Positions 43,127 through 57,074 of a DNA stretch of 64,000 nucleotides are shown in pieces. The notes under the pieces were generated by a model that saw only the letters and a program-made list of their open reading frames with translations, was not told where the DNA came from and searched no databases. Every line of letters begins with the position of its first letter. Position 1 is the stretch's first letter. The DNA is taken from contig NZ_JALTON010000017.1 in NCBI RefSeq assembly GCF_027000115.1, forward strand, positions 1 through 64,000, read 5' to 3'. Position numbers and translations under genes: made by a program. The stretch is from Thiohalobacter sp. (GTDB lineage: Bacteria; Pseudomonadota; Gammaproteobacteria; Thiohalobacterales; Thiohalobacteraceae).

Positions 43127-43401
43127 CGGCTCGCGTGGCCCGGATGGCGCGTAGCGCACAAAAGCACTGGGCGCGTTGAACGTCCGCAGGGCGGCCCGAA
43201 GGGCGAGCAGAGCCAGTAATCCGAGGACTCGGATCGCCGGGGGAGTCCGGATTCCGGCCCTCCATCCAGGCTCCGGGATCGTCGTGACGTATTCTTGCAA
43301 GGCTCGGTAATCCGGATTACCCCACGCCCCGTATCGCTTGCTGCCACAGCGAGTCCCGGCCACAATAACGTTTTCCGGTCAACGCGATGGAGCGGACCCA
43401 C

Positions 43402-43785
43402 ATGCCTTCCCGAGCGACGGACTGGCTGGCGCAGGCCGAGCGCGATCTGGCTCAGGCCGAGATGTCGGCTGCCAATGGCCTGCATGAATGGGCCTGCTTC
43501 GCCGCGCAGCAGGCGGCGGAAAAGGCGGTCAAGGCGCTGCATCTCGCGCGCGGCCAGGAGGCCTGGGGGCACATGGTGGCGAAGCTCCTGGCCGAACTGC
43601 CGCTCCCCGTGCCGGAGATGCTGGTCGAGAAGGGCCGGGTGCTGGACAACTTCTACGTGGCGACCCGCTACCCCGATGGCCATCCGGAAGGCGCCCCTTT
43701 CGAACACTATGGCCCGCTGCAAAGCGGAGAGGCTGTCGATCATGCCCGTGAGATCATTGCATTCGTCCGTACTCAGATGGCCTGA
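43402..43785 (+). CDS. HEPN-domain protein (toxin of a HEPN/MNT pair)
   Basis: 127 residues from the ATG at 43402 (GGAG nine bases upstream; ATG 43387 would add five). It is an all-helical HEPN protein (PF05168 type): ATDWLAQAERDLAQAEMSAANG, then WACFAAQQAAEKAVKALHLARG. An R-x4-H motif (RYPDGH) resembles the RNase centre of HEPN toxins. HEPN proteins of this kind pair with minimal nucleotidyltransferases. The next gene overlaps it by 44 bases and encodes that partner. The whole pair is bracketed by direct repeats. Confidence 0.82.
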   Translation: MPSRATDWLAQAERDLAQAEMSAANGLHEWACFAAQQAAEKAVKALHLARGQEAWGHMVAKLLAELPLPVPEMLVEKGRVLDNFYVATRYPDGHPEGAPFEHYGPLQSGEAVDHAREIIAFVRTQMA

Positions 43786-44128
43786 TGCCGGGGCGGTCGA
43801 GCGGGCGCTGAACGAGTGGATCAGCCGGCAGGCGGCGCAGCGTCCCGAACTCCTGCGCCTAGGGGTATTCGGCTCCTTCGCTCGCCGGACGGACTGGGGC
43901 GTCGGCAGCGACCTCGATCTGGTTGCGGTGGTCGCCGAATCCGATCGGCCCTTTGCCGAGCGCGCCCGGGACTGGGATCTGACCTCGCTTCCCGTGCCGG
44001 CCGAGCTGCTGGTGTACACCGAGGACGAGTGGCAGCGACTGATGGCACAGGGCGGCCGCTTCGCCGATACCATGGCCAGCGAAGGGGTCTGGCTGTTCGA
44101 GCGCGAAGGTGCTGGCCGCGCTCGTTGA
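43742..44128 (+). CDS. Minimal nucleotidyltransferase (MNT, partner of HEPN)
   Basis: 128 residues from the ATG at 43742, or GTG at 43748. The polymerase-beta-type active site is intact: GSFARRTDWGVGSDLDLVAVV, a GS followed nine residues later by DxD. It overlaps the HEPN gene, so translation is coupled. In characterised pairs the MNT protein nucleotidylates and silences the HEPN toxin. This pair is not the DUF86/HepT kind seen at 46351; toxin function is inferred. Confidence 0.8.
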   Translation: MPVRSLHSSVLRWPDAGAVERALNEWISRQAAQRPELLRLGVFGSFARRTDWGVGSDLDLVAVVAESDRPFAERARDWDLTSLPVPAELLVYTEDEWQRLMAQGGRFADTMASEGVWLFEREGAGRAR

Positions 44129-44498: not shown

Positions 44499-45920
44499 AT
44501 GACAATCTATCCCGTGATCCTCACCGGCGGGGCCGGCAGCCGGCTCTGGCCCGTATCCCGTGAACACTTCCCCAAGCCGCTGCTGCCGCTGGTCGGCGAC
44601 CAGACGCTGCTGCAGGCGACGGCCAGCCGCCTGGATGGCCTGGACAATGTTGCCGAACCTCTGTTCGTGTGCAACGAGGAACACCGCTTCCTGGTCGCCG
44701 AGCAGGTGCAGGAACTGGGCAAGACGCCCACCGGTATCCTGCTCGAACCCGAGGGCCGCAACACCGCCCCCGCACTGACCGTTGCCGCCCTCTATCTCGC
44801 CGAGCGCGATCCCGATGCCGTCATGGTGGTCATGCCCGCCGATCACGTCATCCCCGACGCCGCCGGCTTCCGCGGCATGGTGGAGGAGGGTGCGCGGCTG
44901 GCCGAGGCCGGCCACCTGGTCACCTTCGGCGTGGTACCCACCCGCGCCGAGACCGGCTACGGCTATATTCGCCGCGGCCAGGCCATCGACGGCAGCGGCG
45001 GCTTCGCCGTCGATCGCTTCGTCGAGAAGCCCGATCTGGATACCGCCGCCGCCTATGTCGAGTCCGGCGAATACCTGTGGAACGCCGGCATCTTCGTCAT
45101 GCGTGCCGACCGCTGGCTGGAGGAGATCGGCCGCTTCGAAGCGGACATGCTCGCCGCCTGCCGCGAGGCCGTGGCCACGGGCAAGCGCGATACCGACTTC
45201 TGCCGCGTCGGGAAGGATGCCTTCCTGAACTCGCCCGCCAACTCCATCGACTACGCCGTGATGGAACGCACCGACCGCGCCGCGGTCGTGCCCATGAGCG
45301 CCGAGTGGTCCGACGTCGGTGCCTGGTCGGCCATCTGGGACATCCTGCCCCGCGACGAGCGCGGCAACGTCACCAGCGGCGACGTGCTTACCCACGAGGT
45401 CGAGAACTCGCTGATCATGGCCCAGAACCGCTGCGTTGCCGCCATCGGTATCGACAACATGATCGTGGTCGAGACCCCGGACGCCATCCTGGTCACCACC
45501 CGCGACCGCGCCCAGGACGTCAAGGCCATCGTCGGCCAGCTCAAGGAGGCTGACCGCGACGAGTACCGGTTCCACCGTCGCGTGTTCCGGCCCTGGGGCG
45601 ACTACGAGGGCATCGACATGGGCGAGCGCTACCAGGTCAAGCGCCTGACCGTGAAGCCCGGCGCCTCGCTGTCGCTGCAGATGCACCACCACCGCGCCGA
45701 GCACTGGATCGTCGTCTCCGGCACCGCCCGCGTCACCTGTGGCGACGAGGTATTCATCCTCTCCGAAAACCAGTCCACCTACATCCCGCTGGGCACCAAA
45801 CACCGGCTGGAAAACCCCGGCACCATTCCGCTGGAGATCATCGAGGTGCAGTCGGGGAGCTATCTTGGGGAGGATGATATTGTGCGGTTTGAGGATGTGT
45901 ATGATCGCGTACCCGAATAG
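44499..45920 (+). CDS. manC: Mannose-1-phosphate guanylyltransferase/mannose-6-phosphate isomerase
   Basis: 473 residues from the ATG at 44499 (AGGGGA ten bases upstream). The guanylyltransferase domain (about 1-290) starts VILTGGAGSRLWPVSREHFPK and has GYGYIRRG, FVEKPD and WNAGIFV. The C-terminal cupin-type mannose-6-phosphate isomerase domain (about 360-473) has MHHHRAEHWIVVSGTARVT. It makes GDP-mannose for surface polysaccharide. It stands alone between two toxin-antitoxin modules. Its last 75 codons are repeated in decayed form at 46827-47048. Confidence 0.95.
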   Translation: MTIYPVILTGGAGSRLWPVSREHFPKPLLPLVGDQTLLQATASRLDGLDNVAEPLFVCNEEHRFLVAEQVQELGKTPTGILLEPEGRNTAPALTVAALYLAERDPDAVMVVMPADHVIPDAAGFRGMVEEGARLAEAGHLVTFGVVPTRAETGYGYIRRGQAIDGSGGFAVDRFVEKPDLDTAAAYVESGEYLWNAGIFVMRADRWLEEIGRFEADMLAACREAVATGKRDTDFCRVGKDAFLNSPANSIDYAVMERTDRAAVVPMSAEWSDVGAWSAIWDILPRDERGNVTSGDVLTHEVENSLIMAQNRCVAAIGIDNMIVVETPDAILVTTRDRAQDVKAIVGQLKEADRDEYRFHRRVFRPWGDYEGIDMGERYQVKRLTVKPGASLSLQMHHHRAEHWIVVSGTARVTCGDEVFILSENQSTYIPLGTKHRLENPGTIPLEIIEVQSGSYLGEDDIVRFEDVYDRVPE

Positions 45921-45935
45921 CGGCAAGGGCAGGCC

Positions 45936-46364
45936 ATGTCATCCGAAGCGCAACTGAGCCATGTCGAAGCACTCGCCCGGCGTCTCCGGCCGGTATTCGA
46001 GGATCGTCCCGACATCGAGGCGGTCTTTCTGTTCGGTTCCCATGCCGAGGGCCGCGCCCGCCCCGACAGCGACCTGGACCTGGCGCTGGTTGGCCCCCGG
46101 GACAGGCTGGAGAAACAGAAGCTCGACCTGCTCGCCGACCTGGCGCGCGCCGGCTTCGACCGCGTTGACCTGGTCCTGCTCGACGGTGCCGATCCCGCCC
46201 TGCGCTTCGAGGCGGTACGACCCAACTGCCTGGTCCATGCGCGCCCCGACTTCGATCGCGGCAGCTACTATTCGCTCGCGCTGCGGGAATATTTCGATTT
46301 CGAGCCCTATCTGCGAGTCCAGCGCGAGGCCCTCAAGCGGAGGTTGGCTGGTGGTCAGGCCTGA
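45936..46364 (+). CDS. mntA: MntA-like nucleotidyltransferase antitoxin
   Basis: 142 residues. FLFGSHAEGRARPDSDLDLALV holds the GS-x9-DxD active site; the rest fits type VII antitoxin MntA. MntA uses ATP to add AMP residues to the Tyr of the HepT active site and so blocks its RNase. The gene overlaps the following hepT by 14 bases and starts 15 bases after manC. A truncated second copy is at 47064-47282. Confidence 0.9.
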   Translation: MSSEAQLSHVEALARRLRPVFEDRPDIEAVFLFGSHAEGRARPDSDLDLALVGPRDRLEKQKLDLLADLARAGFDRVDLVLLDGADPALRFEAVRPNCLVHARPDFDRGSYYSLALREYFDFEPYLRVQREALKRRLAGGQA

Positions 46365-46764
46365 AGTGATCCGTCGGCGGCTGGAGAATCTCGATGGATA
46401 TCTCAAAATTCTCGAAGGTATGCGCCGCTACTCGCTGGAGGAGTTTCTCGCCGATCCCGAGCATTACGGGAGTGCCGAGCGCTTTCTTCAGCTGGCCATC
46501 GAGACCCTGCTGGACATGGGCAATCACGTCATTGCCGAAGAGGGACTGGGCACGGTCAACCAGAGCCGCGACATTCCGCGCATCTTCAGGGAACGCGGCT
46601 TGATCGAACCCGAGACCGAGGAAAGCTGGATCCGCATGATCAGTTTCCGCAACATTCTGGTACACGCCTATCTGGAACTGGACCGGAGGCATGTGCATGA
46701 GATCATCCAGAATCACCTGGATGACTTTCGGGCAGTTCAACGGGCCTTCGCGAGGTTTCTGTGA
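46351..46764 (+). CDS. hepT: HepT-like toxin (DUF86, HEPN)
   Basis: 137 residues from GTG at 46351, behind GGAGG eight bases upstream. Helical DUF86 protein with the active-site motif R-x4-H-x-Y in FRNILVHAYLELD (near residue 91) and LDMGNHVIAEEGL. HepT is an RNase or tRNA-acting toxin neutralised by MntA through AMP transfer to that Tyr. All motif residues are present, so the pair with mntA should be active. Confidence 0.9.
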   Translation: MVRPEVIRRRLENLDGYLKILEGMRRYSLEEFLADPEHYGSAERFLQLAIETLLDMGNHVIAEEGLGTVNQSRDIPRIFRERGLIEPETEESWIRMISFRNILVHAYLELDRRHVHEIIQNHLDDFRAVQRAFARFL

Positions 46765-46826
46765 ATTTTCTTGATGGTGGAACTGCGGGGCGCATCATCT
46801 CCCACGAGGCACTCGGCAACCAGTTC

Positions 46827-47048
46827 GAACACTGGATCGTAGGCTCTGTTGCCGCGCAACTGAGCTGCGGCGACGAGGTGTTCATCCTCTCCGAAAGCCA
46901 GTCCGCCTACATCCTGCTGGGCACCAGACACCGGGTGGAAAACCCCGGCACCATCCCGCTGGAGATCATCGAGGTGCAGTTGGGGAGTTATCTGGGGGAG
47001 GATGATATTGTGTGGTTTGAGGATGTTTATGATCGGGTGACGGGATAG
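46827..47048 (+). pseudogene. Remnant of a second manC 3' end
   Basis: The translated text HWIV...CGDEVFILSESQSAYILLGTRHRVENPGTIPLEIIEVQLGSYLGEDDIVWFEDVYDRVTG repeats the ManC C-terminal cupin residues almost word for word (compare manC about 400-473). Only the tail of the domain is present, read from an ATG-less upstream stretch overlapping hepT's end. It has no guanylyltransferase domain, so it cannot work as ManC. The nucleotide match to 45699-45920 is close. Confidence 0.85.
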
Positions 47049-47063
47049 CTGGGTAGGGTGGTC

Positions 47064-47441
47064 ATGTCGTCTGATGCGCAACTGAACGACGTCGAGGCAC
47101 TTGCTCAGTGTCTCCGCCCGGTGTTTGAGGATCGTCCTGTCATCGAGGCGGTGTTTTTATTCGGCTCCCATACCACGATTCGCGTGCGTCCCGACTTCGA
47201 TCATGGTGGCTACGATATCCTTGTGTTGCAGAGGTGTTTCGATTCTGCGCCCTATCTGGGTGGTCAGCACGAAGCGCTCAAATCAGGATATTCTGTTTTT
47301 CCGAAAAGAGGCGGAAGCGGGCCAGTTTATGGTGACGACCACTATGCTTCTAAAATGATGGTGTTTTGTGGGTCGGCGGTGCCGATGATCGCGGGATGTG
47401 ATAATAAGCCTGGAAAACCCTTTTACCCCAAGCGCAGGTAG
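47064..47441 (+). pseudogene. Decayed second copy of mntA
   Basis: The start (MSSDAQLNDVEALAQCLRPVFEDRPVIEAVFLFGSH) matches MntA. Then about 63 codons, including the DxD active site, are deleted, and the match resumes at RPDFDHGGY...LVLQRCFDSAPYLGGQHEALK (to about 47282). The remaining frame to 47441 is unrelated. No HepT follows. The protein should be inactive. Confidence 0.85.
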
Positions 47442-47505: not shown

Positions 47506-48519
47506 GTGAATCCCATGATGAATACGAAACCACAATCGACCAACCCTGATGAGCTTTTCTTGTCACTGGTTCTTGTTACGAGAAATCATGAGTGTGGCAT
47601 TTCCACGGTTCTTCATGAGGCGGTGCAATTGCTAGACAGCTTGGTGGCTGACTATGAAATTCTGGTAGTAGACAACGCCTCAGAGGATCATACCGTAAAT
47701 ACAATTCGTGCCAATTTAGATAGTCTGCCCAATATCCAAGTATTGGGGATCGCAAAGCGTATCGATTTTGATGCCGCTGCTTGGTTAGGTGTTGAACAGT
47801 CGATCGGAGACTATGTTGCCGTCCTTGACTCTCGCGCGGACGAAGTCAGCTTTATTCCGGCTTTACTGAAAGAGGCCACGCAAGGCGCCGATGTCGTGTT
47901 TGCCTACAACAGAAATCATCCGGCTCGCCCATTTCTGTACCGACTCGCGTCTGGTTTGTTCAGGCGATTATTTAGAGCGATCGCGAAGGTCGACCTTGAA
48001 AAAGAAGCGCCCCGATATCGCCTCATCAGTCGCCGTGTTGCACAGTATCTCATGCAGCATCGGCAGCCAGTAGCGGCGTATCGCTACCTCCCGGCAACTG
48101 CCGGTTTTGTCCGTAAGAACTTGTCATACCACTCGGCAGCCAAAGGAGTTTTTGAAGACAAAATCGGATCTGCTATAGACCGCGCCCTGAAGCTGATAAC
48201 TGCTTCGAGTAAAACCCCTCTCCGAGTTGTCGTTGGATTGACGAGCATAGGCGCCACCATCAATCTCGCTTACGTGCTGTACGTGCTCTTGATCGCTATT
48301 CTAAAAGAAGAGGTCGAGCCAGGTTGGATTACCTTATCTCTTCAGCAGTCAGGCATGTTCTTTCTCCTGTCTGTCGCCCTCTTGGTTCTAAGCGAATATG
48401 TGCTTTATATCGTGTCCTTAGTAGAAGATAAACCAAGCGCGCTAGTGAATCAGCAGTTTACAAGCGCCAACGTCCCTCGCTTCGATCGACTTAATATAAA
48501 GGACATCAAGGCAGATTGA
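47506..48519 (+). CDS. GtrB/ArnC-like polyprenyl-phosphate glycosyltransferase (GT2)
   Basis: 337 residues from GTG at 47506 (ATG at 47515 or 47518 also possible). The GT-A core (about 17-240) shows LSLVLVTRNHE, LVVDNASEDHT and YVAVLDSRADE, the last standing in for the usual DADLQ motif. Two C-terminal membrane helices (about 245-270 and 285-312) match the DPM1/GtrB/ArnC layout. It would load a sugar onto undecaprenyl phosphate at the inner membrane. It is the first gene of the AT-richer island. Confidence 0.85.
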   Translation: MNPMMNTKPQSTNPDELFLSLVLVTRNHECGISTVLHEAVQLLDSLVADYEILVVDNASEDHTVNTIRANLDSLPNIQVLGIAKRIDFDAAAWLGVEQSIGDYVAVLDSRADEVSFIPALLKEATQGADVVFAYNRNHPARPFLYRLASGLFRRLFRAIAKVDLEKEAPRYRLISRRVAQYLMQHRQPVAAYRYLPATAGFVRKNLSYHSAAKGVFEDKIGSAIDRALKLITASSKTPLRVVVGLTSIGATINLAYVLYVLLIAILKEEVEPGWITLSLQQSGMFFLLSVALLVLSEYVLYIVSLVEDKPSALVNQQFTSANVPRFDRLNIKDIKAD

Positions 48520-48572
48520 TCAGGCCCTCAATTGTTGGGGCAATGGAATGAGTAGTTGGAGGAGGTGTGTCG

Positions 48573-49748
48573 ATGGAATGGGACGCGTTGATTATTGGTG
48601 GAGGGTTCTACGGGTGCACTATCGCGCTATATCTTGCTGATGTCTACAAGTTCGATCGGGTTCTCGTTGTCGAGAAAGAGAGCGATATTTTAAAGCGCGC
48701 GTCTTTTGTCAATCAGGCACGGGTTCATACTGGCTACCATTATCCCAGAGATTTTACTACGGCCTTTCGGAGTCGGGCCAATATGCCCAAGTTTGTTGCC
48801 GACTGGCAGGATGCAATAAAAAAGGATTTTAGGAAGCTCTACGCGATAGCTCGTTCTGGCTCGTACATATCATCGAAGCAGTTTGCGGCTTTTTGCGAAA
48901 AGATTGGCGCGGAGTTGGCTGCGCCGCCAAGCCATATTAAAAGTTTATTCAACGATCGATTGATAGATGATGTTTTCCAGGTTACAGAATACGCATTCGA
49001 CGCGGCTATAATCAGAGAGATAATTCGGGAAAAGATGCATCGAGTTGGTGTGGCCTTACAGTGTCAGGCGCCTGTTGAGGGGGTATCCATTGACGGGGAT
49101 GGTACTTTTGTTGTGACCATTTCGAGCGAAGATGCATCGCCAACATCGCAGTACTCCAGCAAGCGGGTCTTTAACTGTGCATATAGTGGTATCAGTCAAG
49201 TCAGAAGCATGCCGAGTTCCCGCAGAGTTGCGCGTAAACATGAAATTACCGAAATGGCCCTCATAGCGCTTCCTGGAAGCTTAGAAGGGCTATCCGTAAC
49301 CGTTATGGATGGCCCCTTCTTCTCTGTTATGCCTTTTCCCAGTAGCGGGTTACATTCCCTTTCGCACGTCCGCTACACGCCGCATTTTGCATGGGTCGAT
49401 CGCGAAGACGTGGATCCGTATTCGTTGTTGGAGGAGTATCGTAATCGTTCTAATTTCGGGAAGATGATTCGCGATGCGGCGCGTTTTGTTCCGGCACTAA
49501 GAGATGCTCGCCATATAGAATCATTGTTCGAAATCAAGACCGTTCTCATGAGTAACGAGAACAACGATGGCCGACCGATCCTCTTTCAGCAGCATGTGCA
49601 GGCCCCGGGTTACTTTGAGATAATGGGGGGCAAGATTGATAACATCTATGATGTTCTCGATCGTATCGATAAATGTTTCATGGAATGTTTATCGATTCCG
49701 AAGTCGGGCAGATCTGTCTCTAATATCGGAGCTTTTTGCGGTAATTGA
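48573..49748 (+). CDS. FAD-dependent oxidoreductase of the DAO type
   Basis: 391 residues from the ATG at 48573 (GGAGGAGG site; a GTG at 48567 is too close to it). The Rossmann motif is LIIGGGFYGCTIALYLADV (9-27), followed by VVEKESDILKRASFVNQARVHTGYHYPR, the DAO-family pattern of an FAD-bound start and conserved HTGYHYPR. The substrate is unknown. In a sugar cluster it could oxidise an amino or keto sugar or an alcohol. AT-rich codon use matches its neighbours. Confidence 0.75.
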   Translation: MEWDALIIGGGFYGCTIALYLADVYKFDRVLVVEKESDILKRASFVNQARVHTGYHYPRDFTTAFRSRANMPKFVADWQDAIKKDFRKLYAIARSGSYISSKQFAAFCEKIGAELAAPPSHIKSLFNDRLIDDVFQVTEYAFDAAIIREIIREKMHRVGVALQCQAPVEGVSIDGDGTFVVTISSEDASPTSQYSSKRVFNCAYSGISQVRSMPSSRRVARKHEITEMALIALPGSLEGLSVTVMDGPFFSVMPFPSSGLHSLSHVRYTPHFAWVDREDVDPYSLLEEYRNRSNFGKMIRDAARFVPALRDARHIESLFEIKTVLMSNENNDGRPILFQQHVQAPGYFEIMGGKIDNIYDVLDRIDKCFMECLSIPKSGRSVSNIGAFCGN

Positions 49749-49771
49749 ATGTTGTCTGGAGAACTTTCCAC

Positions 49772-50539
49772 ATGCATGATGCGACGGCCTTGATCGGGTA
49801 TTCCGGTTTTGTTGGTACAACCTTACGCCGCCAAACCAGCTTTGATTCTCTCTACCGTTCCACAAATATTGAGAGCATTAGAGGTGGGCGCTTCTCGATG
49901 GTGGTTTGTGCGGGGGCTCCGGCGCAAAAATGGATCGCGAATCGAGAACCAGAGGAAGATTCGCGTTCGATTCGTCGCCTTATCTCGGCAATAGATGGTA
50001 TCGAAGCGGATTGTTTTATACTGATAAGTACGGTCGACGTATTTGCAAACCCTGTCTCGGTGTCTGAAGATGATGAGCCGGATGCGGCCGCGCTTCATCC
50101 ATATGGCCGCCATCGACTGCAGCTTGAGCGCTTTGTGCGCGATAAGTTCGAAAAGCACCTTGTTGTGCGGTTGCCAGGGCTGGTGGGGCCTGGTCTACGG
50201 AAGAATGTTTTGTACGATCTCAAGAATAATAATCAGGTCTCGAAAATAAATGCCGACAGTATATTTCAGTACTACCCAATGGTGAACCTTTGGGCGGACA
50301 TTGGAGTGGCATTAAGGCATAATCTTTCTCTGGTTCATCTGACTTCAGAGCCGGTTCATACCGGGGCCCTTGCGCAAGACGTATTCTCAATCAACCTTCC
50401 GGCACCGGCGCAGCCAGGGCCGCGCTACGACTTTCGGACTATGCACGCGAAGCTCTTTGGGGGTCAGGGAAACTATCAATATTCTTTGAAAGAAGAACTT
50501 CTTGCGATTCGATCTTATGCTCAGTGTGGTGAGGCATGA
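49772..50539 (+). CDS. NAD-dependent sugar epimerase/reductase-like protein
   Basis: 255 residues from the ATG at 49772. A short SDR-like fold with IGYSGFVGTTL (G-x2-G-x2-G) and ISTVDVFA; the active-site pair reads YGRHR where YxxxK is usual, so the Lys is replaced by Arg. Length is shorter than classical extended SDRs. It probably processes a nucleotide sugar made by this island. It overlaps or abuts the following isomerase gene. Confidence 0.7.
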   Translation: MHDATALIGYSGFVGTTLRRQTSFDSLYRSTNIESIRGGRFSMVVCAGAPAQKWIANREPEEDSRSIRRLISAIDGIEADCFILISTVDVFANPVSVSEDDEPDAAALHPYGRHRLQLERFVRDKFEKHLVVRLPGLVGPGLRKNVLYDLKNNNQVSKINADSIFQYYPMVNLWADIGVALRHNLSLVHLTSEPVHTGALAQDVFSINLPAPAQPGPRYDFRTMHAKLFGGQGNYQYSLKEELLAIRSYAQCGEA

Positions 50540-50576
50540 GCAGGAGGTCGCTCTGTTGACAGAAGCTACTAGACAG

Positions 50577-51395
50577 ATGAAGTTGTCTATTTCCAATATT
50601 GCTTGGTCGCCGGCCAATGACAGTGAAGTGGCTCTTCTCCTCAACAGAGAGGATGTCCATGCTATTGATATTGCGCCAGGCAAATATTTCACTGATTTTC
50701 CCAATGTCAACCTAGAGGAGGTCAGTCGGGTCAAGACTTGGTGGAATGCGCGTGGCATTGAGATCGTGGGAATGCAATCGTTGCTTTTCGGGGTCAGTGG
50801 GCTCAATGTTTTTGGTGATATGCAGACACGGCGCCGCCTCCGCCAGCATATGAAGGGAGTATTTCGGATCTCGTCAGAACTTGGCGCACTGCGGCTCACG
50901 TTTGGCTCCCCGAAAAACCGGGATCGGAGTGGGCTTTCAGATGACGCCGCTTTAGATATTGCCGCTGAGGCTTTCCTAGGTATGGCTGAGGACGCCCGCT
51001 CGTACGGAGTAACGTTGTGTCTAGAGCCCAATCCGGTGTTGTATGGATGTAATTTTTTAACAAACACAAGGGAGGTTGCGGAGTTTGTGCGTCTGCTAGA
51101 TCATCCTGCCCTCCGGTTGCAGCTCGACATAGGGGCGATGTGCATGAATAATGAGAGTCCCTCGTTGATTGAGGAAGTCATTGATTTGGTGGGGCACATA
51201 CACATTAGTGAGCCACACCTGCGCGTTCTAAGCTCACGGTCAAGCTTTCACCAAGCAGTCTTCTCAGTCCTCGAATATTTAGGGTGGGGTGATTTCGTTA
51301 CGATAGAGATGCTTTCATCGGAGAGCGCGACGGAATTGTCGGATGTATCGAATGCCTTGCTCGCGGCTAAGGCATATCTTGCGCAAGAGGTATAA
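50577..51395 (+). CDS. Sugar phosphate isomerase/epimerase (xylose isomerase-like TIM barrel)
   Basis: 272 residues from the ATG at 50577, the start that fits the family (MKLSISNIAWSP); a TTG frame from 50502 overlaps the previous gene. TIM-barrel landmarks are LRLTFGSP, LCLEPNP (metal Glu), LQLDIGAM (metal Asp), HIHISEPH (His and Glu) and VTIEML (Glu). It belongs with AP endonuclease-type sugar isomerases. In polysaccharide islands such proteins interconvert keto and aldo sugars, exact substrate unknown. Confidence 0.78.
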   Translation: MKLSISNIAWSPANDSEVALLLNREDVHAIDIAPGKYFTDFPNVNLEEVSRVKTWWNARGIEIVGMQSLLFGVSGLNVFGDMQTRRRLRQHMKGVFRISSELGALRLTFGSPKNRDRSGLSDDAALDIAAEAFLGMAEDARSYGVTLCLEPNPVLYGCNFLTNTREVAEFVRLLDHPALRLQLDIGAMCMNNESPSLIEEVIDLVGHIHISEPHLRVLSSRSSFHQAVFSVLEYLGWGDFVTIEMLSSESATELSDVSNALLAAKAYLAQEV

Positions 51396-51403
51396 CCGGC
51401 ACA

Positions 51404-51760
51404 ATGCTCAAATGGGTTGTTTTGGTGGTCGGAATCGGCGCCAACGCTGGCGCTAGTATTTTGATAAAGATCGCCGTGAGTCGCATTGAGACCCCTGGAA
51501 TCTCATGGCTGGATATCGCCTTATCGCCCTCTTTGGTGGTGGGGCTGATTCTCTACGGCATCACTTTCGCAGCGTATGCTTTGGCGTTAGCTCATCTGCC
51601 GCTTCACGTGGTTCATCCCGTTTTGACTGCCGGCGCTATTGCAGTGGTTGCCGCGTCATCGGTTTTCGTTTTCAACGAATTCGTGAGCCTTCCAGTTCTG
51701 ATCGGAATCATGCTGGTGTCCCTCGGAGTCATACTGATTACGATAGGCACAAAGCAGTAA
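51404..51760 (+). CDS. SMR/ArnE-like four-helix membrane transporter
   Basis: 118 residues with four hydrophobic segments (3-22, 37-58, 64-87, 94-115), SMR/EamA half-size type. It has AHLPLHVVHPVLTAGAI and the C-terminal FVFNEFVSLPVLIGIMLVSLGVILI pattern of ArnE/ArnF, the flippase for undecaprenyl-phosphate aminoarabinose. In this setting it may flip an undecaprenyl-phosphate sugar made by the GT2 at 47506. Confidence 0.75.
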   Translation: MLKWVVLVVGIGANAGASILIKIAVSRIETPGISWLDIALSPSLVVGLILYGITFAAYALALAHLPLHVVHPVLTAGAIAVVAASSVFVFNEFVSLPVLIGIMLVSLGVILITIGTKQ

Positions 51761-51771
51761 CACGGATAGGT

Positions 51772-52581
51772 ATGCGCGAGATGCCGAAAGCACCCGAATG
51801 GGATCTTCCAGATCACACGATTTATCAGTATAGGGCCTGCAGATCCGCCTACATGCTGTTAATCCCTGTTATAAACGAAGGGGAGAGGCTGGTAGCGCTG
51901 CTATCTGAGATCGGCAAGCTGGGGTTGCAGGATCAACTCGATGTTGTCATTGTTGATGGGGGAAGCACTGACGGTTCCACAAGTGAATCCGTACTTCGCG
52001 GTGCCGGCGTCCATGCGCTGATCGTAAAACGTGGCGTCGGGAAGCTTGGTGCTCAGCTGCGTTGCGGCTATGCCTATACCTTGCGTAACGGTTATTCAGG
52101 GGTGGTCACGATCGACGGGAACAACAAGGACGATCCGTCTGCGGTTCCCCTGTTTCTGTCTGCACTAGAGCAAGGCGTCGATTTCGTGCAGGGATCTCGC
52201 TTCGTCACGGGGGGGCGGGCGATAAATACGCCCCTGACGAGGACTGTTGCAATACGGTGTATTCACGCGCCGGCATTGCGCATCGCTTCGGGCTTCCCAT
52301 GGACAGACACGACACAAGGCTTTCGGGCATACAGTAGGAAACTTTTGGAGTCCGAGAGTGTTGCGATATTCAGGGATGTATTTCAAGAATACGAGCTATT
52401 GTTCCACCTTTCATACATTGCGCCCCGACTAGGATTTAGATGTTGTGAAGTTCCCACAACAAGGCGTTACCCGCCCGGAAAGGTGCCGACCAAGATCCAT
52501 GGCCTATCAGCCAACCTGAAGCTGTTGCGCACACTATGGAACGCATGCACGGGCAAATATCATGTTAAAGACGGCGAATGA
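51772..52581 (+). CDS. Family 2 glycosyltransferase (DPM1-like, soluble)
   Basis: 269 residues from the ATG at 51772 (51781 also possible). The GT-A core reads YMLLIPVINEGERL, VVIVDGGSTDGSTSES and VVTIDGNNKDDP, the last carrying the metal-binding Asp cluster. Unlike the GT2 at 47506 it has no C-terminal membrane helices. Homologues of this look transfer sugars to lipid carriers or to glycan cores. Its end overlaps the next gene by 20 bases. Confidence 0.78.
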   Translation: MREMPKAPEWDLPDHTIYQYRACRSAYMLLIPVINEGERLVALLSEIGKLGLQDQLDVVIVDGGSTDGSTSESVLRGAGVHALIVKRGVGKLGAQLRCGYAYTLRNGYSGVVTIDGNNKDDPSAVPLFLSALEQGVDFVQGSRFVTGGRAINTPLTRTVAIRCIHAPALRIASGFPWTDTTQGFRAYSRKLLESESVAIFRDVFQEYELLFHLSYIAPRLGFRCCEVPTTRRYPPGKVPTKIHGLSANLKLLRTLWNACTGKYHVKDGE

Positions 52582-55500
52582 CCGGACCTATTTTGTTGCG
52601 GCAACAGTGTCAGCAGGGGGTCTTGTATTTTCTATGGCGGCTTTCGCCCTTGGGAAATATGTCAGTGCGATCGCATTTCTGCTGTTTGGATCCCTGTTTG
52701 CCGTAATAGGTTATCGAAGGGGGTGGTGGGACACTGACCAAGAGGACCAGCATACTCAGCGAGACTTGGCCACGATCGCGTTCCTGTATGCTCTCTTTAT
52801 CGCGATAGTAATATTCAAAGCACATGTGCTTTCCTTCGTCTTTGATGGATTTCCCTATGATGGGCCGTTCCAATCGTTCAATCCATTACGGAGGCTCCAT
52901 CAGGGTGAGCTTCCGTACATAGATTTTCATTATTTCCATGGGACGTTTCTTCCGGTCCTTATGTGGCCAATTTTTGAATTCCTCGGTGCGAACCTGTACG
53001 CATCAGAGATGTCGCGACAAATTCTCGATTTGGGTGTTTTCTGTGCGGGGGTGTGGGTTTGCGGTCGACTACTGTTTTCGGTGAGGGAAGAGCGGCATCT
53101 CTTTTTCGTCGGATACCTCCTTATCATCATTAGCAACACTGTCCTTACGGACTTACAGAATCCGCTATTCAGCATTCATGCGCAGATTACTCGCGCTGCA
53201 CCACAATTTCTCGCTATGGTCGCCGGCTATGTCGTGTTCTCCGAGGTCTTCTCCGGGGCGTCGATGTTTCGTCAGGCGCTTCTCGCGTTCGCTTTTGGTG
53301 GAATCACTGCCCTCGCGGTCCTGGTGACTAATGAACAAGGAATTTATCTTTTTGCTTCGCTGCTCGTAGTTGTTGGAATTCGCGTCCTCCGTGCGGCGCG
53401 AGCGACTGAGGCGTTCGTAATATTTGCGGCGATTATTGGTAGTTTTGGTCTGTGCTTGGCTGCTGCTGAGTGGATGGCTGACGGGCAGGGGCCACTCTAT
53501 CAGCTTAAACAGGTTGCGCGCGACCAAGTCTGGTACTTTGGTACATTTCCGAACATTTTCCTGACTGGGCTGGATGATTTGGCGGAGGCTGAAGGTATAT
53601 ATAAGCTCCCGCGCGCTATTGCCCGTTTGATGTTTGCCATTATCATACTATGGTTGCCAATTGCCTTGTCAGGATCTATCAGGCTAACGGCACGCGGCGG
53701 CGCGCTGATTGGTGCCATATCGTACGGAATATTTGCGCTCGGCTCGCTTACTGGGTATTTCGGCCTTCACTATTTCGATCCATTACTGCGCGCCCTAATC
53801 CTTGCGACCGCCGTCTGCATTCTCACATATCGCAGTTTGGATGCTGGTAGCACAATAAGCGTGGTGAGGCCATTTAGCGCCGTGCTTCGGTTTTGGGTGT
53901 CCCATTCCAGACCGCTTCTTCTGTCTGTTTCTGGTTTGTCGGTCGTAGCGGTTATGTGGACTGCCAAACCGTGGGCGCTTGCAGAACTGCTTCGGGATGC
54001 GCAAAGGCTTCCGGTCGATCCCGTTCTTGGGGTAAAGCTTCCCGACGATCGCGCCCCCTTGAACTCGCGGTGGTCGGAACGGCTCGATGCAGTAGTTGGG
54101 CGGGCCATACTGCGGGGGAAGGGCGTTGTTCTGCCACAGAGATCATTCTCTGCTCCAACTGCTGCAGGCGTTGAAGGGCCGTTTCGGAATGGGCTGTTGC
54201 ATGTTGCCTGCCTGACTGCCAACCAACTGCCCGCAGTCGCTATCGCCCCAGGAAATGTTCTCCGAGTTTTTAGTGGTGAATATCGCCATGATTTCTCCAT
54301 TCTTCTATATGACTATATCACCAAACAGATATGCGTCGAACTCGCAGATGGCGGTGCAACGAACATCCTGATCCGCGCGCGGGAGCAGAACCGGATACTG
54401 ACTGCGCACCTCGTCTCGGATTCGGCGCTCAGGCGCCGAGAGGCCCTTGTCGTAACCACAGACTTCAATGAAACCGGCTCCCACAAGTTCAATGGCATCT
54501 ATGGAGATCGGGCGGCCGTTATATTGAAAGTTGAAGGCAAGCGCCAATTGGTGACCCGGGGTTACTTGCCGCAGCCTGGCGAAAGCCTCCGTTTTCCCTA
54601 TTCCGGTGAGCGGCAGGTAAAGGCGGTATACTCGACTGGTTATGTTGAGTTGGATTCGGGAAATCTCGACCCCTATTTGGATGGCTATCCTCAACCTATT
54701 GCTATTAACGGCAAGAGCCCGAAGTATACATCCAGGGACCCGGCTGCCTCGTTTTTTGAAGCTACAGTCCGCTCAGTAAATACGCTGCTGTTGATGAGTC
54801 CCGGGGATGCACGCCGAATTGGCGTGGGCGAAACAATAAAGGCGCGGTTTGCCAATCGGTGGGCTAAGGTCAAAAACAAATCATCACTAGGGATTGTGGC
54901 GCTGGATGGCTATTATCCTGCTACCACGAATGCTTGGCTTTATCCGCTAAATTATTGGGTCGAGTGGGTTGGCGCGAGTAATGACTGGCGTTATGACAAA
55001 AAGGAAGGAGCAGGGATGTCCCTTGATGTTCCGGCGGTCTGGTCACTGTACTCGGGAATTCCAGATGCGATCGTCGGGAGCCTAAATCCAAGTGGAGTTG
55101 ATTATGTAATCCACGCGCTTGGAACCGCCCGTGGGAAATATCCCGAGGAATTTCGAGCGGTAAGACCTGAGTGGTTTGTGACTCTTCGATCGATGCCATC
55201 ACCTATTTATAATCGCTGGCTGCTCAACATGAACTGGTCGTTAATCCTCGACGCGTTAGCGAGCTATGATGTCTCGGCCGCGACTCAGTATGCTGTATAC
55301 TGGAAGCGCCGCGACGAACCTCGTTCGGTATCCTTTGGGTTGGAAAGAGAACTCGACAGCGGGATTGTCACTCGGGAAATAGCGGGTTGTAGAGCGAGAG
55401 GTGATACCCGCTATCTTAATGTTACAGTCGACTACACCACGGAAAACCGCTTGAGGAATATTCCGGTTCTTGGGCGACTGCCGCGCTATCTTGTGACAAT

Positions 55501-55789
55501 GGAAGGTGCTGTGTTTGGTGTACCTGTCTCTGTTCCGCCATATGAGACATCTTTCAGCTTTCCTGTCCCGTTCAACTGCGAGCAAGGCCAAGGACATTTC
55601 GTCGGCAAAGTAATGGGGCTAGGGAAAGGGTTCGCCTCGTTCAATATACGAAAAGTCTCCGTCAGGCCGATTACTAGCCATTATGCTCAGCTGAATGTGC
55701 TCTTTATGCGCGACGAGCGTTCGCGGCGCCCACGAGTTGCAAGCTGGGGAAAAGCTCTCTCGGATGTCCTGCTTCCAAAATCCAGTTGA
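52562..55789 (+). CDS. Giant membrane protein, possible GT-C glycosyltransferase with large C-terminal domain
   Basis: 1075 residues. The first 470 or so are a polytopic membrane region with about a dozen hydrophobic segments (14-55, 72-90, 115-200, 220-290, 300-420, 440-470). After the second helix pair comes DGPFQSFNPLRRLHQGELPYIDFHYFHG. That type of loop with Asp residues resembles membrane glycosyltransferases that use lipid-linked sugars. The last 600 residues are soluble and unrecognised, with no obvious motif. It starts inside the preceding GT2 frame, so it is made in the same transcript. GC is low. Wzy polymerase is an alternative, but its size is unusual. Confidence 0.7.
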   Translation: MLKTANDRTYFVAATVSAGGLVFSMAAFALGKYVSAIAFLLFGSLFAVIGYRRGWWDTDQEDQHTQRDLATIAFLYALFIAIVIFKAHVLSFVFDGFPYDGPFQSFNPLRRLHQGELPYIDFHYFHGTFLPVLMWPIFEFLGANLYASEMSRQILDLGVFCAGVWVCGRLLFSVREERHLFFVGYLLIIISNTVLTDLQNPLFSIHAQITRAAPQFLAMVAGYVVFSEVFSGASMFRQALLAFAFGGITALAVLVTNEQGIYLFASLLVVVGIRVLRAARATEAFVIFAAIIGSFGLCLAAAEWMADGQGPLYQLKQVARDQVWYFGTFPNIFLTGLDDLAEAEGIYKLPRAIARLMFAIIILWLPIALSGSIRLTARGGALIGAISYGIFALGSLTGYFGLHYFDPLLRALILATAVCILTYRSLDAGSTISVVRPFSAVLRFWVSHSRPLLLSVSGLSVVAVMWTAKPWALAELLRDAQRLPVDPVLGVKLPDDRAPLNSRWSERLDAVVGRAILRGKGVVLPQRSFSAPTAAGVEGPFRNGLLHVACLTANQLPAVAIAPGNVLRVFSGEYRHDFSILLYDYITKQICVELADGGATNILIRAREQNRILTAHLVSDSALRRREALVVTTDFNETGSHKFNGIYGDRAAVILKVEGKRQLVTRGYLPQPGESLRFPYSGERQVKAVYSTGYVELDSGNLDPYLDGYPQPIAINGKSPKYTSRDPAASFFEATVRSVNTLLLMSPGDARRIGVGETIKARFANRWAKVKNKSSLGIVALDGYYPATTNAWLYPLNYWVEWVGASNDWRYDKKEGAGMSLDVPAVWSLYSGIPDAIVGSLNPSGVDYVIHALGTARGKYPEEFRAVRPEWFVTLRSMPSPIYNRWLLNMNWSLILDALASYDVSAATQYAVYWKRRDEPRSVSFGLERELDSGIVTREIAGCRARGDTRYLNVTVDYTTENRLRNIPVLGRLPRYLVTMEGAVFGVPVSVPPYETSFSFPVPFNCEQGQGHFVGKVMGLGKGFASFNIRKVSVRPITSHYAQLNVLFMRDERSRRPRVASWGKALSDVLLPKSS

Positions 55790-55847: not shown

Positions 55848-57074
55848 TTGTCCACGAATTACAAACCGGCCTACGTGCGTTATGCCATATTCCTGGCATT
55901 TCAGGGGTGGCATCAACTAGTCGGCCGTATTGTGCTTCTGGGGGCTTTGTTGTTTATAGCATCCCAGGTGGGACCAGAGGAATTCGGCAGTCTGCAGGTC
56001 GCGATCGTCTTCTTTTCGCTCGCGCTCACAGTGAACGATGCTGGGTTCGCGCCGCAAATTATCAATTTGGTCACCCCGAGGCAGCATATCCCTCGGGTGC
56101 TGATTTCAGTGAAAATATACTGGTCACTATTCGCGACAGTAGCAATGTTTATTGTCTTCTCGATCGCCTACGGCGACGCTTCTTTGGGATTGCGCTTTCT
56201 TGTTCTTATTGCAGCGTTACTCGTATCCCTTTGTTCGTTTTTCTTGGTCTGCCTTCGGGGTCTTGTGCTGCACCATATAGAGGCCGCCTTTGCGTCAGTC
56301 CAGCGAATCGGTGCGGCGCTGCTCGCATCAACGCTAGTTGTTGCGCTTGGCGAGGTGAGTGCGTACTTCATTGCGATGGCTATAACAGCGGCGTTGGTTT
56401 TGGCGTTGATCTGGCGGTCACTTACAAAGGGCGGCCTTGTCTCCAACGCCCCCTTGGTGATGCGTCGCTTCCCGGTAGGGTATCTGTTGCTAATCGAAGT
56501 AGGGACGTGGGTATATTCCAGGATTGATTTGATAATACTTGAGCATTGGCATGGGGAGGCGACTGCTGGGCAGTATGGGCTGGCTTATACCGTGTTCAGT
56601 GGGCTTGCGGTTACTTCCGTGGTACTGGTGGCTGTCATGTATCCTGAGGTTGTCTCAAGAACTGGCGGTTCTCGGGCGCGCGCCATCAAAATATCTTGTT
56701 TCGCACTGTCTATTGTCGGAGCTGCGGTAACAGGGATGGTCATGACCGTCGGAGATCGGGTGATTTCTATAGTGGCTGGTGGGGAATTTCAGTCAGCAGG
56801 GGAATTTCTTGTATTGTTGGCGCCGGGCTATCTGGCTATGTTCCCCAACGCACTACTTAGCCAAGTAGCGATACTTCGAGGGCGAACCCGAGAGTTGTCG
56901 TTGGTTATTGTGTTTGTAGCGTGCGGTAATGCAGTGGCAAATTATGTTTTTGTGCCCGACTATGGTGCCGCGGCCGCTGTTTGGATTACGGTCGCCACGG
57001 AGTTTTTCCTTGTGGGGTTCAGCTTGATATTGGTAGGCGCCATGGCGGCGACTTCTGTGCCCAATGAGCGATAG
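55848..57074 (+). CDS. Oligosaccharide flippase (Wzx-like)
   Basis: 408 residues from TTG at 55848 (AAAGG eight bases upstream). It has about twelve membrane helices, opens GWHQLVGRIVLLGALLFIASQVGPEEFG, and has the MATE/Wzx pattern of the polysaccharide transporter family. It would flip undecaprenyl-diphosphate-linked repeat units across the inner membrane. Its 3' end overlaps the next gene's start by 11 bases. Confidence 0.85.
   Translation: MSTNYKPAYVRYAIFLAFQGWHQLVGRIVLLGALLFIASQVGPEEFGSLQVAIVFFSLALTVNDAGFAPQIINLVTPRQHIPRVLISVKIYWSLFATVAMFIVFSIAYGDASLGLRFLVLIAALLVSLCSFFLVCLRGLVLHHIEAAFASVQRIGAALLASTLVVALGEVSAYFIAMAITAALVLALIWRSLTKGGLVSNAPLVMRRFPVGYLLLIEVGTWVYSRIDLIILEHWHGEATAGQYGLAYTVFSGLAVTSVVLVAVMYPEVVSRTGGSRARAIKISCFALSIVGAAVTGMVMTVGDRVISIVAGGEFQSAGEFLVLLAPGYLAMFPNALLSQVAILRGRTRELSLVIVFVACGNAVANYVFVPDYGAAAAVWITVATEFFLVGFSLILVGAMAATSVPNER

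Follow-up and report, generated by a model that had tools for sequence, protein, structure and literature searches.

The question raised by this locus is what a run of seven genes on the plus strand of a Thiohalobacter sp. contig (NZ_JALTON010000017.1, assembly GCF_027000115.1) does as a unit. The window analysed here is the whole stretch of 64,000 nucleotides (positions 1 to 64,000), and the gene cassette within it encodes, in this order, a glycosyltransferase-like protein of family GT2 (GT2a), an FAD oxidoreductase, an SDR, a TIM-barrel protein, an SMR protein, a second GT2 (GT2b) and a protein of 1075 amino acids (aa). A preliminary description, made from the DNA letters, had read these genes as one unit for a lipid-linked sugar, made up of a loader, an SMR flippase, a GT-C-like transferase and enzymes that make the sugar; our analysis supports this view, and all the features named in it were recovered at their coordinates, with the addition of GT2b (51772-52581), which had been overlooked between the SMR gene and the 1075-aa gene. 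Based on gene composition, co-conservation, motif state, the interchangeable flippase and terminal protein, and plasmid and prophage carriage, all computed directly, we consider it rather probable that the cassette is a Gtr-like three-component system for extracytoplasmic glycosylation that brings its own sugar-remodelling trio. A more specific version, which we put forward tentatively, is that of a widespread phage- and plasmid-borne system in which an FAD/TIM/SDR relay makes a rare epimer on undecaprenyl phosphate, with an obligatory dead glycosyltransferase and interchangeable transferases that include new GT-C families.

In the mechanism that we propose, the chemistry, the order of the steps on the carrier, the sidedness, the sugar, the acceptor and the role of GT2a are all put conditionally. 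GT2b would take a common hexose from its nucleotide donor and load it onto polyprenyl phosphate. At the cytoplasmic face, the FAD oxidoreductase would then oxidise a hydroxyl on the sugar ring, the TIM barrel, which resembles ketose epimerases, would invert a neighbouring carbon and the SDR would reduce the ketone, yielding a rarer epimer that is still lipid-bound. GT2a, as a probably dead GT2 with two transmembrane helices, may act as an anchor or organiser of the soluble enzymes at the membrane. Finally, the SMR protein would flip the lipid-sugar, and the 1075-aa protein would transfer the sugar, in the periplasm, to a glycan from the Wzx-type O-antigen cluster that surrounds the cassette, and the CBM-like domain of this protein may hold the acceptor glycan.

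The grouping of the cassette genes is far beyond chance. Using the FAD protein as bait in a profile scan of ~85,000 species genomes, we obtained 551 relatives, of which the best 80 were kept, and the exact order GT2a-FAD-SDR-TIM-SMR-GT2b was found in 55 of the 68 loci with enough flanking sequence. Correlations between the pairwise distance matrices of these six gene families have rho values of 0.61-0.82 (maxima after shuffling, <=0.41). Since these loci had been picked through the FAD protein, the comparison was repeated free of this bias, with separate FAD, SDR and TIM profiles run on 169 Pseudomonadaceae genomes: the three profiles matched the identical 17 genomes, with 18 copies each, in adjacent positions and with SDR-TIM gaps of 21-30 bases. 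The chance of such an identical set is ~1 in 10^23, a figure which ignores kinship, most of the 17 genomes belonging to one genus. Failure of the gene set to travel together had been named beforehand as the outcome that would refute the preliminary description, and the very strong co-occurrence of the core therefore speaks for it. The bait also has 12 plasmid relatives; nine were read, and seven of these lie inside a full or nearly full gene set, while a Mesorhizobium plasmid carries only the FAD gene, the SDR gene and a displaced TIM gene. No prior description of the cassette was found in a search limited to the open-access literature. As a side observation, a Pseudomonas locus (L068:4465-15381) carries a partial SDR-TIM-SMR-GT2b copy in tandem before the full set, and exosortase genes (xrtE, xrtD) adjoin the cassette in Rhodobacter and Ruegeria (L009:5105-6715, L015:12576-14228).

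The cassette is carried by plasmids and phages. The Psychrobacter plasmid pA22P4, of 10.8 kb, holds the SDR, TIM, SMR, FAD, GT2a (unannotated) and GT2b genes together with that of a 479-residue membrane protein, in addition to replication and mobilisation genes; with the minimal cassette on so small a replicon, its substrates are likely to be housekeeping ones. A phage contig (L103) contains the complete core and a membrane protein of the type that we call MEM1; it also encodes a tail sheath, a tape-measure protein, other tail proteins and a late regulator, and the GT2b on it matches phrog_841 ('GtrB-like O-antigen conversion'). Another copy of the cassette, in Pseudomonas sp. GM74 (L082), comes after prophage genes for tail proteins, endolysin and spanin. 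This prophage carriage is likewise seen for the serotype-converting gtr operons. On another phage contig (L104:9980-11041) a member of the FAD family has aminotransferase-like and glycosyltransferase-like genes around it, and the other cassette genes are missing.

The three enzymes between GT2a and the SMR protein suit, from their families and motifs, an oxidation, an epimerisation beside the resulting ketone and a reduction. The closest structure to the FAD protein is that of L-alpha-glycerophosphate oxidase (4x9m), and its family conserves the signature RAS..NQARVH.G.HYPR; it belongs to the DAO superfamily and is thus set apart from DprE1, which has a VAO-type fold. The TIM barrel matches L-ribulose and D-tagatose 3-epimerases (~1e-12) and 3-keto-D-glucoside 4-epimerase (6wn6, 4.9e-6), and E175, D209, H234 and E269 (counted from position 50502), which would be the metal ligands expected of a ketose 3-epimerase, are invariant in our alignments. 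The SDR carries a GxxGxxG motif and an invariant Tyr, and has Arg where Lys is usual. We infer that this trio acts on the lipid carrier because it is constantly linked to GT2b and the flippase, because the cassette has no nucleotidyltransferase, and because the DprE1/DprE2 and Citrobacter systems provide precedents (PMC11127046). The same genes would also be found if the trio built an unusual nucleotide sugar first and GT2b (or GT2a) then loaded the finished sugar in an Arn-like way, an arrangement that we regard as somewhat unlikely. Nucleotide sugars are frequent substrates of RmlD-like SDRs, and in the Arn pathway ArnA and ArnB work on UDP-sugars ahead of ArnC. Nevertheless, besides the lack of a nucleotidyltransferase, the nearest structures to the FAD and TIM proteins are those of a glycerophosphate oxidase and ketose 3-epimerases, not of nucleotide-sugar enzymes, and the trio is tied to GT2a, SMR and GT2b in nearly all loci; none of these three points is decisive.

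If the trio works on the carrier, as we prefer, the next question is which GT2 loads it. The preliminary description had given this role to the GT2 that starts at 47506. The two C-terminal hydrophobic segments on which it relied are indeed present in GT2a, which matches GtrB (sll0501, 6.7e-15) and ArnC (2e-10) in the PDB; the role itself does not stand. GtrB requires D94/D96 and D157, and the change D157N abolishes its activity (PMC4728340). GT2a lacks both this DXD and the catalytic D157 of GtrB/ArnC-type enzymes: in the window's copy Arg occupies the equivalents of both D96 and D157, and the loss extends to nearly all of the 87 family sequences, with Leu, Met or Phe in most at the third DXD position (the D96 equivalent; Asp in 2/87) and Gln (58/87), Ser, Pro or Arg in most at the D157 equivalent, where Asp is not among the commonest residues. 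Alphaproteobacterial copies are so degenerate that their annotation reads 'hypothetical'. GT2a is thus probably a membrane-anchored pseudoenzyme, judging from these residues. In GT2b the motifs DGNxKD, DTT.GFR and RYP are invariant or nearly so (79 sequences), as expected for a polyprenyl-phosphate sugar synthase, with the DXD reading DGN. Its best NCBIfam match is AglJ (7e-13, below the AglJ cut-off), its PDB match is DPMS (5mlz, 8e-8), most members of its family have no transmembrane segments, and in Rhodobacter and Cereibacter it is fused to a membrane protein. We therefore assign the loading to GT2b as a prediction, since GT2a has lost the essential residues of GtrB while GT2b keeps its motif set. 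GT2a does retain a VDNASxD motif and D112/D113 beside the former DXD, and the DXD of GT2b is itself altered, so that one could think of two lipid-linked donors, with GT2a loading one sugar through an unusual active site and GT2b transferring another; given the inactive D157N variant of GtrB, the residues now found at this position and the degenerate alphaproteobacterial copies, we find this improbable.

The 1075-aa protein, predicted to make the final transfer, has ~10 hydrophobic windows, all before residue ~425, and gave no Pfam match and no significant NCBIfam or PDB match. A single-sequence search found no relative in 369 genomes of the class, 11 of the family, plasmids or genome contigs, and a search of viral contigs with its family found none either; relatives were reached only through their cassette neighbours. 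Two Stutzerimonas homologues (L063, 971 aa; L093, 939 aa) occupy the same slot right after GT2b, compact homologues of 666-823 aa occur in Roseobacter, Methylotenera, Casimicrobiaceae and Sulfuritalea, and in locus L054 the homologue is encoded within the cassette, with TIM on one side and SMR on the other. The first-loop motif around D100 and D121 is common to all of them, whereas the ~335-residue extra segment of the window's protein, located between the transmembrane domain and the conserved periplasmic part, is missing from the compact ones. In Foldseek searches the full-length model places ArnT at ranks 1-2 and the EclA sugar-binding domain (6yf6, a beta-sandwich) at rank 3, a result that we treat as weak because of the model's pLDDT of 41; with a compact homologue, STT3, ArnT, AftD and AftA dominate the long membrane matches and the C-terminus matches CBM6 (1uxz). 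The ArnT and STT3 matches have a probability of 0.99 and E values of ~4e-3 to 3e-2, from models with pLDDT values of 41 and 64. The GT-C fold suggested earlier thus gains moderate support from the first-loop Asp motif and from ArnT and STT3 as best long structural matches, at E values above 0.001: it is supported, not proven, by the models. Could this protein instead be a Wzy-type polymerase, or another enzyme of O-antigen lipid-glycans, that stands beside the cassette by chance? Its gene precedes a Wzx-like gene, no separate Wzy was identified among the neighbouring genes examined, and hhalign comparison of its family with the Pfam PMT_2 GT-Cs and with the other terminal families leaves a relation neither shown nor excluded. 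The homologues in the same slot (L063, L093) or within the cassette (L054), the conserved GT-C-like first loop and ArnT as top structural match make us doubt this strongly, and in any case a protein with a GT-C fold could also be a polymerase.

Elsewhere, the terminal slot, or the cassette interior, is occupied by several clusters of membrane proteins without detectable sequence relation to the 1075-aa protein, and a Pfam scan gave no assignment for those of them that were scanned. Two loci carry two different terminal membrane proteins each (MEM2 and MEM3, L054:1271-6527; MEM1 and MEM3, L012:12377-16133), as if one donor served two transferases. Separately, a short C-terminal domain is common to putative acyltransferase-3-type proteins and membrane proteins near cassettes (L029, L058, L080, L031 and relatives), with blast matches and an hhalign value of 96% (79 columns) that links the acyltransferase group to the 1057-aa class.

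The SMR protein is a small membrane protein of the kind (GtrA, SMR or MATE) expected of a flippase, and it is predicted to flip the lipid-sugar. The best evidence for this is a swap: in six alphaproteobacterial plasmid cassettes the SMR gene is replaced by GtrA, which adjoins FAD and GT2b. Glu14 is the essential residue of EmrE, and its position is taken by Asn in 68/68 sequences, so the protein does not fit the EmrE type. The ArnF model gives 25 bits (cut-off, 99), and there is a single SMR gene, not an ArnE plus ArnF pair. That the protein is an ordinary multidrug exporter, in a metabolic island unrelated to glycosylation, is very improbable in view of this Asn, the GtrA swap and the GtrB-like O-antigen-conversion score of the phage-borne GT2b, even with EmrE as its best raw NCBIfam match (far below the cut-off).

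Several observations weigh against the reading of the cassette as a Gtr-like system with its own remodelling trio. With DGN for the DXD in GT2b and Arg for the catalytic Lys in the SDR, the activity of both enzymes is presumed, and the gene data fit remodelling on the lipid and on a nucleotide sugar alike. An Azospirillum plasmid has a partial set, with the enzymes present and no adjacent flippase or membrane transferase. For the 1075-aa protein, besides the hhalign outcome, the AlphaFold2 models have low (pLDDT 41, 7 sequences) or, for the compact homologue, moderate (pLDDT 64) confidence, and no Foldseek match reaches E<=0.001. Additionally, homologues of the window's O-antigen-type genes lie within ~10 kb in only 12 of the 80 loci, and the acceptor is therefore not always a neighbour's product. 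This same count, together with the cassette standing alone on a plasmid and in prophages, led us to reject a reading of the six genes as mere sugar genes of the O-antigen cluster itself.

Table 1. Coordinates in the window of the cassette genes and of parts of the 1075-aa protein.
Feature	Position	Strand	Assignment and remarks
GT2a	47506..48519	+	PF00535; GtrB/ArnC-like GT2 fold, two C-terminal transmembrane helices, catalytic residues lost; predicted pseudo-glycosyltransferase
FAD-dependent oxidoreductase, DAO superfamily	48567..49748	+	PF01266 (3e-14); predicted sugar-hydroxyl oxidation
RmlD-like SDR	49772..50539	+	GxxGxxG, YxxxR replacing YxxxK; predicted ketone reductase
Ketose-3-epimerase-like TIM barrel (xylose-isomerase-like)	50577..51395	+	PF01261 (2e-15); predicted keto-sugar epimerase
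SMR-type protein, four transmembrane helices	51404..51760	+	predicted lipid-sugar flippase
GT2b	51772..52581	+	PF00535 (1.1e-6); DPMS/AglJ-like soluble GT2; predicted polyprenyl-phosphate sugar synthase
1075-aa protein	52562..55789	+	predicted GT-C-type transferase; N-terminal transmembrane domain (~residues 1-475) plus periplasmic region
First periplasmic loop motif FPYDGPFQSFNPLRRLHQGELPYIDFHYFHGT of the 1075-aa protein	52850..52945	+	invariant D100 and D121; candidate catalytic/metal residues
Extra segment of the 1075-aa protein, ~335 residues	54014..55021	+	missing from compact homologues (666-772 aa); partly common to Stutzerimonas homologues
C-terminal beta-sandwich of the 1075-aa protein, CBM-like	55304..55672	+	Foldseek 6yf6, 1uxz; position from alignment

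The starts of three genes differ from those of the mechanically called open reading frames: the SDR start was taken from the homologue alignment (mechanical frame 49745-50539), that of the TIM barrel is supported by homologues (50502-51395), and the GT2b frame had been stretched upstream to 51505 (51505-52581). The cassette has a G+C content of 0.51, below that of both flanks (0.67 and 0.66), and was therefore probably acquired. Downstream of the 1075-aa gene come the Wzx-like gene (55848-57074), two GT4s and WecA-like and WbpM-like proteins. On the other side, at the left edge of the low-G+C island, there is a partial second copy of the 3' end of manC and of the beginning of the next gene, which is nucleotidyltransferase-like (46826-47281 and 45698-46336; 82% identity over 371 bases and 72% over 96 more); this copy resembles the duplication scar of an insertion. 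The manC gene is flanked by two HEPN/MNT-like gene pairs (43387-44128, 45936-46764), judged from the look of their translations.

Several known systems have features in common with the cassette. The bacterial 3-keto-glycoside epimerase pathway follows the same logic of oxidation, epimerisation and reduction, and the TIM profile of the cassette matches its enzyme 6wn6; that pathway acts on free glycosides through NAD-dependent dehydrogenases, with neither an FAD enzyme nor a lipid carrier. With ArnC, ArnE-ArnF and ArnT the cassette shares the GT2 fold and the SMR flippase, and in the fold search ArnT is one of the closest relatives of solved structure. Membership of the Arn system itself finds no support: there is no ArnA, ArnB or ArnD family match, there is one SMR gene, with an ArnF score far below the cut-off, the catalytic residues of GT2a are lost and the sugar chemistry would be different. 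The mycobacterial pathway (DprE1/DprE2, Rv3789, Emb/Aft) also combines oxidation of a lipid-linked sugar with SDR reduction, an SMR-type exporter and GT-Cs with CBMs (PMC11127046), whereas in the cassette the FAD enzyme is of the DAO family, a TIM-barrel epimerase is added and the loader is unrelated.

Periplasmic glycosylation by three-component systems is a driver of antigen variation and of resistance to phages, and two such systems are closest in working. The pentofuranose systems of Citrobacter youngae O1/O2 have a lipid-linked donor, an epimerase predicted to act on the carrier, a flippase and a GT-C with a CBM-like domain (GT136; PMC11127046); GT-C plus CBM is also the layout predicted for the 1075-aa protein. 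On-carrier epimerisation thus has a precedent, and the authors of that 2024 study knew of no further epimerase in systems for O-antigen side chains (PMC11127046). Their loader is a phosphoribosyltransferase using phosphoribosyl pyrophosphate, with a MATE flippase and one SDR (PMC11127046), in contrast to the GT2 loader, SMR flippase and FAD/TIM/SDR trio of the cassette. The Gtr systems that glucosylate the O antigen (GtrA, GtrB and a Gtr GT-C; Shigella/Salmonella and their phages) share with it a GT2 loader, a small flippase, a variable terminal membrane transferase and carriage by prophages; beyond these, the cassette has a conserved pseudo-GT2 and three enzymes for sugar modification, and the predicted loader in the window has no transmembrane helices of its own. 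Most likely, then, the cassette resembles the Gtr and pentofuranose three-component systems in working, with a remodelling trio and a pseudoenzyme in addition. It is a candidate second branch beside the pentofuranose one, with a conserved core of six genes, end-enzymes that can be swapped and have no Pfam assignment, and a pseudoenzyme that is also conserved; as such it predicts one or more rare sugars in many bacterial surface glycans and supplies the marker genes for finding them.

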